Below, in pieces: positions 550-6,106 of a stretch of 64,000 bases of DNA. Positions within the stretch are counted from its first letter, which is position 1; each line of letters opens with the position of its first letter. The stretch is from Psychrobacter sp. ANT_WB68 (GTDB taxonomy: Bacteria > Pseudomonadota > Gammaproteobacteria > Pseudomonadales > Moraxellaceae): NCBI RefSeq assembly GCF_008369115.1, contig NZ_VOAZ01000001.1:496001-560000 (forward strand). Reading direction: 5' to 3'. The translations under genes were made by a program, and so were the position numbers. The notes beneath the pieces are model-generated. The model saw only the letters and a program-made list of their open reading frames with translations. It was not told where the DNA came from and searched no databases.

Positions 550-2247
550 CTAATCGGTGCCAAACTGCTTACGTTTTTTGGCAAAGAAGCGCTCTAAGCG
601 ATCCATAGCATCCTCTAAGTCATGCAGGTTGGGCAAAAATACCAAGCGGAAATGGTCAGGTGCATCCCAGTTAAAGCCCGTACCTTGCACCATTAAAACG
701 TTTTCTTCCACCAGTAAGTCCATCATAAACTGCATATCGTCTTCGATAGGATAGACTGCAGGATCCATTTTTGGGAAGCAATAAAACGCGCCTTGCGGCA
801 TGGTACAAGAAATACCTTTAATGGAATTGAGGCGTGAGACTGCCATTTCGCGCTGCTTATACAAACGCCCTTTTTTAGAGGTCAAATCTTTCATACTTTG
901 ATAACCGCCCATCGCGGTTTGAATCGCATATTGACCTTGGACATTGGAGCATAGGCGCATAGACGCCAGCATATCTAAGCCTTCAATAAAGTCAGCAGCA
1001 TGGTGTTTTTTACCAGAAACCATCATCCAACCGGCACGAAAACCTGCGATACGATGCGATTTTGATAAACCATTGTAAGACAATACAAGCACATCGTCGG
1101 TCAAGGTGCTCATCGGCGTATGCTCCATATCATCATAAAGAATACGATCGTAAATTTCATCAGCCATAATAATTAAATCATGCTGTTTTGCAACCTCGAT
1201 AATTTGCAGCAGTAATTCATCACTATACAGCGCACCGGTTGGATTATTAGGGTTAATAACCACGATGCCTTTAGTTTTAGGCGTGATTTTAGATTTGATG
1301 TCTTCGATATCAGGGTGCCAGTTGTCGTCTTCATTACAGCGGTAATGGACGGCAGTACCACCAGATAGGTTAGCCGCTGCTGTCCACAGTGGATAGTCTG
1401 GCATTGGAATGAGCACTTCATCACCGTCATTCATCAACGCCTGCATGGTCATGACAATGAGCTCAGAAACTCCATTACCCAAATACACATCACGGACATC
1501 AACGGCAGATAGCAGCCCTTTTGATTGATAATATTGCAATACCGCTTTACGGGCCGCAAAAATCCCTTGCGAGTCTGAATAGCCCGTTGCGTCTGGCAAG
1601 TTCATCGCCACATCACGTAAAATCTCATGCGGTGCTTCGAGACCAAAGGGCGCCGGATTACCAACGTTCAGCTTTAAAATACGTTTACCTTCCGCTTCCA
1701 TTTTATTGGCCATCTGTAAAAGAGGGCCACGAATGTCATAGCAAACGTTTTGTAATTTATCGGATTTTTTTATTGTGTTCATAGAGTGCCCACTCATAGG
1801 GTTGTTTTGTGAATTTGTCGCGTTAGTATGCTTTTTCGTTGAAACAGGCGTTGGTACTGCTTGATTTGTCATTGGTTGAGCGGCGGTAATTTGAGTATTA
1901 CGCATTTCATTTTTATTATTAGCATTTACGCTTTGAGTTGAATCTGCGTTGCTAGCAATGTCGCTATCGATGTCAGTATCAATATTCATATCACTTTGCC
2001 ACTCACCACGTAAAAGATAGCCTTCGCTACAACCTAAGATACGCGCTAGAGTCGGCAGCTTCGATGACACAATACCATTTGTCCCACGTTCCCAATTAGA
2101 GATAGCCCCGCGACTGACCTTTGCACCTGCTGCGGTCATCGCTTGCGCCAATTGCTCGGCCGTCATGCCTTTATCGCGGCGAAGTTGTACCAATCGTTCG
2201 GCTTGCGTGCTTTTGCTAGCCTGCAACTCTTTGCTATCAGCCATCAT
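550..2247 (-). CDS. alaA: Alanine aminotransferase (AlaA-type) with N-terminal XRE helix-turn-helix domain
   Basis: The C-terminal ~405 residues are closely similar to E. coli AlaA, a PLP-dependent glutamate-pyruvate aminotransferase (fold-type I): NVCYDIRGP at the start, the VINPNNPTGA loop, ADEIYD, and SYNGLSKSHR with Lys396 as Schiff-base lysine. Ahead of it, residues about 15-80 form an XRE/Cro-like helix-turn-helix (RLVQLRRDKGMTAEQLAQAM ... VSRGAISNWERG), joined by a ~75-residue polar linker rich in Asn, Thr and Gln. The plain AlaA would start at an internal Met (MNTIKKSDKL), so the extension is in frame and uninterrupted. The total of 565 residues compares with about 405 for AlaA. The upstream region carries repeated TGCAAG half-sites, suggesting self-regulation (inference). 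The enzyme call is firm; the regulatory role is not proven. Confidence 0.9.
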   Translation of the reverse strand: MMADSKELQASKSTQAERLVQLRRDKGMTAEQLAQAMTAAGAKVSRGAISNWERGTNGIVSSKLPTLARILGCSEGYLLRGEWQSDMNIDTDIDSDIASNADSTQSVNANNKNEMRNTQITAAQPMTNQAVPTPVSTKKHTNATNSQNNPMSGHSMNTIKKSDKLQNVCYDIRGPLLQMANKMEAEGKRILKLNVGNPAPFGLEAPHEILRDVAMNLPDATGYSDSQGIFAARKAVLQYYQSKGLLSAVDVRDVYLGNGVSELIVMTMQALMNDGDEVLIPMPDYPLWTAAANLSGGTAVHYRCNEDDNWHPDIEDIKSKITPKTKGIVVINPNNPTGALYSDELLLQIIEVAKQHDLIIMADEIYDRILYDDMEHTPMSTLTDDVLVLSYNGLSKSHRIAGFRAGWMMVSGKKHHAADFIEGLDMLASMRLCSNVQGQYAIQTAMGGYQSMKDLTSKKGRLYKQREMAVSRLNSIKGISCTMPQGAFYCFPKMDPAVYPIEDDMQFMMDLLVEENVLMVQGTGFNWDAPDHFRLVFLPNLHDLEDAMDRLERFFAKKRKQFGTD

Positions 2248-2328: not shown

Positions 2329-2416
2329 TGCAAGATATTATTGCAAAATAGCTTCTGATGCAAGTATCTAAATAGTATCAGTAGAAATAATTTATAAATT
2401 GCAAGAATAACTTGCA
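2329..2416. promoter_or_regulatory. Cluster of TGCAAG half-sites, candidate operator of the HTH-aminotransferase
   Basis: TGCAA-N7-TTGCA lies at 2329-2345, a single TGCAAG at 2359-2364, and the near-perfect palindrome TTGCAAGAATAACTTGCA at 2399-2416. All lie 80-170 bases upstream of the aminotransferase start. The spacer sits between divergent genes (aminotransferase and msrB). The binding protein is not known; the N-terminal HTH of the adjacent gene is the obvious candidate, by inference only. Confidence 0.45.
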
Positions 2417-2791: not shown

Positions 2792-3217
2792 ATGCAGGAC
2801 AATCAATTAAGCAAAGAAGAAATCAGCCAGCTGACCGAAGCGGACTGGAAAGAGCGCTTGAGTGCTGAAGAATATCATGTGATGCGTGAGAAGGGCACAG
2901 AGCGCCCATTCACTGGCGTCTATAATGACGTCGATGATAAAGGTATCTATCGCTGTAAAGGCTGCGGTGCGAAATTGTTTGATGCTGATAGCAAGTTTGA
3001 CGCCGGTTGCGGCTGGCCAAGCTTCGATCAGGGCATCGATAATAGCGCCATCGATGAGCATATCGACGACTCGCTAGGCATGCGCCGTACCGAAGTGACA
3101 TGCAGCAATTGTGGCGCGCACTTGGGTCACGTATTCCCTGATGGGCCACGTGAAACGACTGGCATGCGCTATTGCATCAACTCAGTGTCTATCGATTTAG
3201 ATAAGTCTGAAGAATAG
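2792..3217 (+). CDS. msrB: Peptide-methionine (R)-S-oxide reductase MsrB
   Basis: Reduces methionine-R-sulfoxide in oxidised proteins using thioredoxin; cytosolic. The 141-residue protein carries the full single-domain MsrB fold: two zinc CxxC pairs (CKGCGAKLF and [12 protein letters not shown]), the GCGWPSFD core, and the C-terminal catalytic RYCINSVS with Cys128. The length matches stand-alone MsrB. The start is supported by AAGGA at a six-base spacing. It is followed 155 bases later by a glutathione peroxidase gene, giving a small oxidative-damage group, although a hairpin between them suggests separate transcripts. Confidence 0.96.
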
Positions 3218-3372: not shown

Positions 3373-3858
3373 ATGAATACTATTTATGATTTTACTGCTG
3401 AGCGTATCGACGGAACGACACAAAATTTCTCTGACTATGAAGGTCAAGTGTTGTTAATCGTTAATACCGCAAGCAAGTGTGGCTTTACACCGCAGTTTGA
3501 GGGTTTAGAAGCGCTGTATCAGCAATATAAAGATGAAGGTTTAATGGTTGTTGGCTTTCCATGCAATCAATTTGGTAACCAAGATCCTGCTAGTAATGGT
3601 GAAATTGGGGAGTTTTGTGAAAAGAACTATGGTGTGAGCTTTCCGATGATGGCAAAAATTGATGTTAATGGTAAAGATGCCCATCCGATTTTTGAATGGC
3701 TAAAGAATCAAAAGGGTGGATTACTCACTGATGGCATCAAATGGAATTTCACTAAGTTTTTAATCGACAGTAAAGGGCAGGTAATTGATCGTTATGCACC
3801 AACAACCAAACCTGAAGCGCTTAAATCCGATATTGAGCAAGCGCTGGCTACAAAATAG
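3373..3858 (+). CDS. Glutathione peroxidase (BtuE/GpxA-like thiol peroxidase)
   Basis: Reduces hydrogen and organic peroxides with glutathione or thioredoxin as donor. The sequence has the family landmarks: NTASKCGFTPQ with peroxidatic Cys36 (cysteine, not selenocysteine), the FPCNQFG block, and KWNFTKFL containing the catalytic Trp/Asn. The length of 161 residues is normal for bacterial Gpx. No signal peptide, so cytosolic. The start is set by AAGGA at 3361-3365. Bacterial members of this family often prefer thioredoxin, so the electron donor is left open. Confidence 0.94.
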   Translation: MNTIYDFTAERIDGTTQNFSDYEGQVLLIVNTASKCGFTPQFEGLEALYQQYKDEGLMVVGFPCNQFGNQDPASNGEIGEFCEKNYGVSFPMMAKIDVNGKDAHPIFEWLKNQKGGLLTDGIKWNFTKFLIDSKGQVIDRYAPTTKPEALKSDIEQALATK

Positions 3859-4380: not shown

Positions 4381-4660
4381 GAACATCGAAATATTGGATT
4401 CAAGACATGTCTTTTTACATAATAGGGATTAGGATGTAAAGCTTGATGTCAATCGAACAAGATTAGAGTTTTTTTCTTCTTATCATGTCATTAATAAAAG
4501 TCGACATAATTTCAATAATAAATCCATACAAATACTAATGAATTATATTACCAATATAAGATAAATTAGTATATTCTTATATCCGTATACAGTAGTATAC
4601 TGAAAGTAGTAAACAAGGATAGTAAACTCATTATTTTGTTGTCAACTAGGAATGGCTTCT

Positions 4661-5434
4661 ATGTCAAAAACAACATCACAGTTAAATAAGTCAGATAAAA
4701 AAGTTGCTTTAGTCACAGGTGCACTTGGAGGTATCGGTACTGCTATTTGTGAAAAGTTAGTGGCTAGTGACTACCATGTCATTGCAACTTTAAGTGAAGA
4801 TGATCCAGAGCGTATAAAAAAGTGGTGCAGTGATAATGGACTTGACTCGGATAATTTTGAGTTTCTTGCCGTTGATTTGAGTAATCATGAAACCGCGATG
4901 GCAGCCATTCAACAGACAATCGATAAGTATGACAGCATTTATGCTTTGATAAATGGAGCGGGTATCACTAGTGATAGTAGCTTTAAAAAAATGAGCTTTA
5001 CGCAATGGAAAGAGGTAATTGATACTAATTTAACGTCTCTTTATACTATTGTTCATCCTGTTTTTTTAAAGATGCTAGAACAAAAAACAGGCCGCATTGT
5101 CAATATCAGTTCAATAAATGGCTTGCGTGGTCAGTATGGGCAGACGAACTACTGTGCCGCTAAGGCAGGTATTATTGGATTTACTAAGGCCCTAGCATAT
5201 GAAGGTGCCGCCTCATTAATTACCGCCAATGTCGTCGCTCCTGGATATACACATACACCCATGGTAGAAAGCGTGCCTGAAAAGATCATGGATAAAATCA
5301 AAGAAACTATTCCAATGAATCGTTTAGCCAATGCAAACGAAATCGCCGCTGCTTGTATGTATCTTATTAGTGATGAAGCTATATTTGTCACAGGGGAAAC
5401 AATATCAGTTAACGGCGGTCAATATATGTCTTAA
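4661..5434 (+). CDS. phaB: Acetoacetyl-CoA reductase PhaB (SDR family)
   Basis: NADPH-dependent reduction of acetoacetyl-CoA to (R)-3-hydroxybutyryl-CoA, the monomer-supplying step of polyhydroxybutyrate synthesis. A classical SDR of 257 residues: cofactor loop TGALGGIG near the N-terminus, NGAG, and active-site Ser plus YCAAK with Tyr164. The block SINGLRGQYGQTNYCAAKAG and the C-terminal GGQYMS closely resemble Cupriavidus PhaB. An in-frame ATG at 4652 touches the AGGA motif directly, so the ATG at 4661 (nine bases from AGGA) is the better start. First gene of phaB-phasin-phaC-DUF3141. No phaA thiolase is present in the window. FabG is the alternative, made unlikely by context. Confidence 0.9.
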   Translation: MSKTTSQLNKSDKKVALVTGALGGIGTAICEKLVASDYHVIATLSEDDPERIKKWCSDNGLDSDNFEFLAVDLSNHETAMAAIQQTIDKYDSIYALINGAGITSDSSFKKMSFTQWKEVIDTNLTSLYTIVHPVFLKMLEQKTGRIVNISSINGLRGQYGQTNYCAAKAGIIGFTKALAYEGAASLITANVVAPGYTHTPMVESVPEKIMDKIKETIPMNRLANANEIAAACMYLISDEAIFVTGETISVNGGQYMS

Positions 5435-5518
5435 CTTAAGTGTCATATAAGTTATATATATTGTATTTCTAAGTAGTATCATCAAGTCCTCTTAACAATC
5501 CCCTCATGGAGAAATAGT

Positions 5519-6106
5519 ATGTCACAACCTAATCCTCAAGATTTTCTTAATCAGTTCAACCAATTTAGTGGCGATACGCAAAAAATGTTTGAACCTTGGA
5601 CAAAATTAAATCAAGCATTTTTGAAAAACGCAGAAATGATGACTGAGTTTTCACTTAATACTATTAAGTCTTACTCAGAAATGGGTCTGGAAAATATGCG
5701 CCAAGTTGCGGGTATAGACTCTCCAGAAACTGCGAAAGACTTTAGCGACAAGCAAGCAGAAATGCTGAATGTCATCAGCCAGCAGATGTTAGCAGACGCT
5801 CAACGTATGTCAGAGCTTGGCAGTAGTATGCATGATGAAGTTATAAAAGTTATGGGCGATGTTCAGGGTCAAACCACTGAGCAAATGCAAGCTAACATGC
5901 AAAAAACTGCTGATCAAGCAACAAAAGCAGGTCAAGAGTATGCAGCAAATATGAGCAAGATGGCTGAGCAAGCTTCAGGAACCGTAAAAGCTGCTACAAA
6001 AACAAATACTAGTAATACCACTACTGAAACTAACACTACTGGTACTACGAATACAAAAACTGGTACTGCTGGTGCTAGCAGTACTGGGAAATCGACTAAT
6101 AGATAG
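5519..6106 (+). CDS. phaP: Phasin family protein (PHA granule coat)
   Basis: Phasins coat polyhydroxyalkanoate granules and control their size and number. The 195-residue protein has the phasin_2 look: an N-terminal amphipathic helical region (FNQFSGDTQKMFEPWTKLNQ), long uninterrupted helical stretches with no signal peptide, and many Met and Gln. The last ~45 residues are an unusual low-complexity tail of almost only Thr, Asn, Ser, Gly, Ala and Lys, likely disordered. It has a good ribosome-binding site (GGAGA) and is followed by a hairpin before phaC, which may set a higher expression for the coat protein than for the synthase. Confidence 0.88.
   Translation: MSQPNPQDFLNQFNQFSGDTQKMFEPWTKLNQAFLKNAEMMTEFSLNTIKSYSEMGLENMRQVAGIDSPETAKDFSDKQAEMLNVISQQMLADAQRMSELGSSMHDEVIKVMGDVQGQTTEQMQANMQKTADQATKAGQEYAANMSKMAEQASGTVKAATKTNTSNTTTETNTTGTTNTKTGTAGASSTGKSTNR

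Follow-up and report, generated by a model that had tools for sequence, protein, structure and literature searches.

In PutA, NadR, and BirA, one polypeptide acts both as an enzyme and as the repressor of its own pathway; such self-repressing enzymes are known as individual cases. The XRE-AlaA fusion described here would, as proposed below, work like these autoregulatory enzymes. It differs from them in the enzyme involved and in that different N-terminal domains, with different DNA sites, are found on one ortholog within one family.

MocR/GabR regulators combine a GntR-family helix-turn-helix (HTH) with an aminotransferase-like sensory domain (PMC5320631). XRE-AlaA resembles them in carrying an N-terminal DNA-binding domain on a fold-type-I aminotransferase fold, but differs in its XRE-type HTH, in an AlaA ortholog with a full active site, and in sites that lie at its own gene. 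Membership in the MocR group was considered and rejected, since Pfam found no GntR-family HTH in the protein. In searches of the open-licence PMC literature, none of the papers listed deals, by title and beginning of abstract, with an XRE- or StbA-fused alanine aminotransferase. Within the reach of these searches, what is new is the identity of the enzyme and of its fused domain (XRE or StbA-like) and, most of all, the occurrence of different domains with matching sites on one ortholog.

The window (the whole 64,000-nucleotide stretch of Psychrobacter sp. ANT_WB68 DNA that was analyzed) encodes the fusion and its parts as follows.

550..2247, minus strand: XRE-AlaA fusion gene, one uninterrupted ORF with an ATG start, 565 amino acids, stop codon included in the coordinates
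2002..2211, minus strand: XRE (HTH_3) DNA-binding domain, residues 13–82, placed by Pfam, structure model, and selection
2089..2112, minus strand: third helix, residues 46–53 (RGAISNWE), presumed recognition helix, as in other XRE proteins
1783..2001, minus strand: hypervariable disordered linker, residues 83–155, placed by pLDDT and pN/pS
553..1782, minus strand: AlaA (glutamate-pyruvate aminotransferase) part, placed by its best solved relative and active-site residues

A Pfam scan of the window protein placed HTH_3 at residues 21–78 (27.0 bits, cut-off 23), with HTH_19 and HTH_31 below their own cut-offs and HTH_26 also in the list, and Aminotran_1_2 at residues 190–549 (E 3.2e-58). Both HTH_3 and Aminotran_1_2 were found in 34/34 fused proteins scanned. 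The nearest solved HTH by sequence is that of the P22 c2 repressor (E 0.0013). Residues 11–80 are confidently predicted (block means of pLDDT 81–97), and the linker is predicted to be disordered, with pLDDT below 50 at residues 85–152. The model of the whole protein is modest (pTM 0.54), and the domain arrangement was therefore not used as the basis for any claim.

The best solved relative of the enzyme part is Escherichia coli AlaA (4cvq; residues 154–556, E 8.2e-172), with which it shares 59% identity, and Met156 of the window protein aligns with Met1 of E. coli AlaA. The best NCBIfam model, alanine aminotransferase PRK08363.1, scored 346.6, below its cut-off of 534. Twelve active-site residues were taken from the description of E. 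coli AlaA (PMC4094517): Tyr-15, Ile-17, Arg-18, Tyr-68, Tyr-129, Asn-179, Asp-207, Tyr-210, Ser-239, Lys-240, Arg-248, and Arg-378 in E. coli numbering. All twelve are unchanged in 144/144 family loci, a count that excludes one locus with an interrupted gene (L063). By sequence, the enzyme part is an AlaA ortholog with the full set of catalytic residues and is predicted to be catalytically competent. E. coli AlaA itself, with the same start position and the same twelve residues, has 405 residues and no DNA-binding domain. The sequence-only reading had seen an HTH of the XRE and not the GntR class, a linker, and a complete, fully catalytic AlaA-like enzyme in one uninterrupted frame; the single ORF, the Pfam and 4cvq matches, and the invariant active site bear this out.

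Directly after Met156, the gene contains a run of seven A (ATA AAA AAA TCC, window 1765–1771) that is retained in many XRE fusions; read in frame as A AAA AAA, it is a possible slippery sequence. By reading only, the divergent neighboring ORFs at window 2792–3217 and 3373–3858 resemble MsrB and glutathione peroxidase, and window 4652–6106 holds a PhaB-type reductase-like ORF followed by a phasin-like ORF. An MsrB-like ORF also lies upstream of alaA at L180, and a similar trio is presumably present in Pseudomonas.

The fusion is present in 105/105 Psychrobacter genomes. The match starts at residue 13 or earlier in 97 of the 105, and the other eight were read individually and contain the XRE domain (one of them, L163, was assigned to the XRE class by hand). 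In 41 Psychrobacter pairs with an AlaA pS of 0.15–0.5, median pN/pS was 0.029 for the XRE part, 0.026 for AlaA, and 0.445 for the linker (residues 83–148). Purifying selection acts as strongly on the XRE part as on the enzyme part. This N-terminal value, as low as that of AlaA, indicates that the N-terminal part is translated and constrained. Within helix 3, Arg-46, Asn-51, Trp-52, and Glu-53 are invariant in 62 g1, 19 g10, and 6 g7 loci (genus codes), and Ile-49 is kept in 86/87 of these tabulated loci. The sequence-only reading had named two ways in which it could fail, an N-terminal part that is never translated and an HTH without DNA-contact residues; selection on the N terminus speaks against the first and the conservation of helix 3 against the second. 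We also note that L302 (BMPS01000003.1), a record under the name Streptomyces cinereus JCM 3040, contains a gene for an XRE-AlaA of the Moraxellaceae type and is probably from a mislabeled or contaminated genome.

The region 2329–2416 upstream of the gene, proposed earlier as the DNA target, indeed holds two conserved palindromes of 17 bp each, together with a putative promoter.

2400..2416: distal palindrome TGCAAGAATAACTTGCA (TGCAAG-N5-CTTGCA), proposed operator
2329..2345: proximal palindrome, TGCAATAATATCTTGCA on the gene strand, proposed operator
2335–2340: −10-like TAATAT, inside the proximal palindrome
2358..2364, minus strand: middle half-site CTTGCAT, 17 bp ahead of TAATAT and proposed as the −35 region

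The motifs were first spotted by eye in the same sequences and then sought by an unbiased count of all 5-mer dyads with spacers of 0–12 bp in the 300 nt upstream. TGCAA-N7-TTGCA was the top dyad of the XRE-class genes (76/88; L155, with a short upstream region, was omitted from the motif table). With its definition fixed, this dyad occurs in 61/61 Psychrobacter and 16/19 g10 XRE-alaA genes (g10 is probably Moraxella), in 0/25 unfused alaA genes of the family, and in 0/30 genes of the other classes; dinucleotide shuffles yield it in 0.2 of the 61 Psychrobacter genes. None of the six g7 XRE genes has the exact dyad, and five of them have a longer form of it with up to two mismatches (shuffles 0.15).

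In Psychrobacter, the sequence around the palindromes is little conserved. Among 59 loci with context, the proximal palindrome is identical in 54 and carries one change in 5, and the middle TTGCA lies exactly 18 nt ahead of it in 44. The exact distal form is found within 420 nt upstream of alaA in 54/62 genus loci, and its spacer varies but is nearly always A/T. The window arrangement, TTGCAT-N17-TAATAT, has counterparts elsewhere: TTGCA stands 16–18 bp before a hexamer with at most one mismatch to TATAAT in 17/19 g10 genes, and 15–19 bp before such a hexamer in 71/89 of all XRE genes, compared with about 25.5/89 for random positions. A consensus scan of 2200–2850 for sigma-70-like promoters gave no match on the minus strand and one on the plus strand (3.5 in shuffles); we therefore infer the place of the promoter only weakly.

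The conserved sites preceding the gene suggest that the fused enzyme controls its own synthesis. The reading that we favor, and in which we have good confidence, is that a competent AlaA with two XRE domains would bind the palindromes at the alaA promoter and repress alaA, free enzyme being made from Met156. The AlaA homodimer would carry two XRE domains on long flexible linkers, and this pair would bind 17-bp palindromes of the TGCAAG-N5-CTTGCA type around the promoter. Binding at the proximal palindrome, over the proposed −10 element, would block the promoter, resulting in negative autoregulation by the enzyme. In E. coli AlaA, the N-terminal arm belongs to the dimer interface and, with a substrate mimic bound, adopts an ordered conformation across the active site (PMC4094517). 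Because of this position of the arm, the substrate or cofactor state could alter operator binding. A second start at Met156 would add free enzyme without the XRE domain.

This second start is proposed from the following features.

1780..1782, minus strand: internal ATG (Met156), matching Met1 of E. coli AlaA in position, candidate second start
1789..1795, minus strand: Shine-Dalgarno (SD)-like GAGTGGG upstream of the internal ATG

In 89/90 XRE fusions, a methionine occurs in the 25 codons preceding the AlaA core, whereas the remainder of the linker would predict this for 27%; the other fusion types also have a methionine before the core (18/18, 4/4, and 7/7). The mean duplex energy with the 16S tail in XRE fusions amounts to −3.84 for the last such methionine, −2.68 for the first start, and −0.64 for the remaining codons of the linker; it averages −1.60 over all extension codons and −3.23 at the starts of unfused alaA. 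In Psychrobacter, the internal methionine reaches −3.99 versus −2.80 after synonymous randomization and is stronger in 55/61 cases. In the other fusion types, the SD-like energy (the best of several methionines) is weaker than at the first start, and in the third, or P, type (see below) it is no better than elsewhere in the extension. On these sequence features, the case for an internal start is strong for the XRE fusions only, where the Met156 start probably also yields free enzyme lacking the DNA-binding domain.

It could also be that most of the cellular protein is made from Met156 and that the XRE form is minor and kept only as a regulator. We regard this as unlikely. The nearly universal methionine ahead of the core would fit it, as would the window energies, which are stronger at Met156 (−5.4) than at the first ATG (−4.6). 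The first start has an SD-like site too, however, and the XRE part is strongly selected, which argues that the XRE form is made. The internal methionine, raised earlier as a possible sole start, is probably a second start that adds to the first and does not replace it.

The favored reading, autoregulation by the fused enzyme, is consistent with how the site is distributed. The exact 17-mer pattern occurs once in the 3.1-Mb genome of the window, at alaA. With at most one mismatch, it occurs at 10 places, the two alaA sites included, compared with 4 for the reversed control. Of the eight other one-mismatch places, five are in ORFs and three (L202, L203, and L207) lie outside ORFs of at least 100 amino acids. 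Across the genus, 91/105 genomes contain the exact 17-mer and 77/105 contain exactly one (reversed control 2/105); some copies are not at alaA, as in G023 and as with both copies in G064. An exact site found once in the genome, and exactly once in most genomes of the genus, fits mainly local autoregulation. A regulon as the target is disfavored by the single exact site in the window genome, although a small one may exist, given the three one-mismatch places outside ORFs. The earlier proposal of an enzyme-regulator keeps its XRE HTH, its catalytic AlaA, and its conserved palindromes, with a target that seems to be alaA itself and not a regulon.

The same protein and operators might instead activate alaA or mainly regulate other genes, which we consider quite unlikely. 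With its place upstream of the proposed −35 region, the distal palindrome could serve activation, but it is the proximal palindrome, covering the proposed −10 element, that is better conserved (54/59 identical, compared with a free spacer in the distal one). Regulation of other genes could use the one-mismatch places, which outnumber those of the control and include the three loci outside ORFs, but 77/105 genomes have exactly one exact 17-mer.

The sequence-only reading had suggested a search for the XRE-AlaA architecture across Moraxellaceae. XRE fusions are the most frequent type, with 90 of 145 family loci (six genus codes); other genera carry different domains with different sites: 19 loci have an StbA-like domain, 7 a third (P), and 4 a fourth (Y), and 25 are unfused.

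The StbA-like domain heads AlaA in 4 g9 loci and in 15/31 g15 loci; we take g15 to be Acinetobacter because the domain matches A. baumannii at 94%. One such A. baumannii match is annotated as a pyridoxal phosphate-dependent aminotransferase. The domain matches NCBIfam StbA (NF041290) weakly (E 3.2e-5, 24.6 bits, cut-off 100), has no Pfam match, and has relatives on plasmids of Acinetobacter, Moraxella, and Psychrobacter. StbA of plasmid R388 binds to direct repeats of 9 bp, TTGCATCAT, with two nucleotides between them (PMC3098194). StbA of R388 is a free plasmid protein, whereas in Acinetobacter a weak relative heads a metabolic enzyme. Upstream of the StbA-like alaA genes, GTAAGCAA direct repeats (reverse complement TTGCTTAC) are present in 19/19 loci, compared with 0/25 unfused genes, and 63/82 neighboring repeat pairs are 21–23 or 30–32 bp apart. 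This motif (motif B) was defined on these first 19 loci and tested on 40 new g15 loci. A survey of 80 more g15 genomes gave 63 in which the alignment to the StbA-like AlaA begins at residue 1 and 17 in which it does not; the test used every one of the 17 unfused genomes and 23 of the 63 fused ones. At least two repeats were found in 23/23 StbA-like loci, and none in 17/17 unfused ones. In L063 (G243:C1), an StbA-like alaA of an Acinetobacter-type genome, the gene seems to be interrupted, the frame with the AlaA start being only 191 amino acids long.

The third domain (g13, 7 loci) has no trusted Pfam or NCBIfam match. ATAGG-N6-CCTAT precedes 7/7 of its genes and is the top dyad of the class in the unbiased count; from these sites and its HTH-like look, we infer that the domain binds DNA. 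The fourth, of the MYFVNKK type, occupies the first 80 codons of L044, L045, L050, and L065 (g11, three genomes). Its Pfam matches are unreliable, no fold match was found at E 0.001, its model is modest (pLDDT 69), and the unbiased dyad count found no shared upstream motif in the four loci. Weakly related sequences are present on small mobilizable plasmids.

The 25 unfused alaA genes contain none of the three motifs under the definitions used. By sequence comparison, three of the four domains are each accompanied by their own type of site, and where the domain is missing, so is the site. Beyond the family, the order search matched 127/145 genomes and the class search 25/232; none of the four domain types was found in the 64 out-of-family AlaA loci that were classed (L095, L114, and L115 were unmatched in the scripted classing), and long upstream frames in ten out-of-family loci gave no Pfam match.

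This correspondence bears on whether the palindromes serve another, trans-acting regulator while the fused XRE domain has some other role, such as oligomerization. Two fused XRE genes, L043 and L057, have no motif even at two mismatches, as such a regulator would allow. The site type changes with the fused domain, however, and the sites are absent from L180, a g10 alaA with neither XRE domain nor palindrome, and from 33 unfused g15 genes; an unrelated regulator would not predict this match of site and domain. Helix 3 is, in addition, nearly invariant. We judge this alternative to be very improbable. That the HTH-like stretch is functionless and in frame with AlaA by chance or misannotation can practically be dismissed: the window HTH_3 score is only modestly over its cut-off, but the fusion is present in 105/105 genomes with a pN/pS of 0.029 in the XRE part, a confident HTH model, and conserved sites.

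A quick tree of 106 AlaA cores (SH-aLRT support only, 12 of the 62 genus loci included) implies a minimum of 10 changes in the N-terminal type. The types of g13 and g11 each form a single clade (support 99 and 100), and one clade of 79 rows combines XRE, StbA-like, and g11 rows with 17 unfused ones. We take this to reflect independent gains or exchanges of domains along with losses, the tree being compatible with gain as well as loss in Acinetobacter. The fused state agrees with the motif (the XRE-class motif at up to two mismatches) in 100/106 rows; the six exceptions, four g11, one g14, and one g16, are among the 69 fused rows and have none of the three motifs. Related loci are not independent, and kinship limits the formal significance of the counts. 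Fused and unfused loci form 8 pairs over all branches and 3 on well-supported ones, all 3 concordant (sign test, p = 0.25). With only three well-supported contrasts, the case for site-domain matching rests on motif specificity and not on many independent events.

A wider proposal, which we put forward tentatively and hold to be somewhat short of probable, is that AlaA is a regulatory platform. Within one bacterial family, at least four different N-terminal domains would have been joined to it, all at one junction, and for three of them the matching operators would have come and gone with the domain. Each gene would give two products, a self-repressor and free enzyme from the ancestral start, and the substrate-gated arm would act as a switch for any attached DNA-binding domain.

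One and the same housekeeping enzyme appears to have become coupled to its own promoter repeatedly, through different N-terminal domains, with the unfused relatives as natural controls. This case allows direct tests of how metabolic enzymes turn into transcription factors and of protein–operator co-evolution, and it bears on whether a pre-existing ligand-gated arm eases such a conversion. It also bears on A. baumannii, where the domain is hidden under a plain pyridoxal phosphate-dependent aminotransferase annotation.
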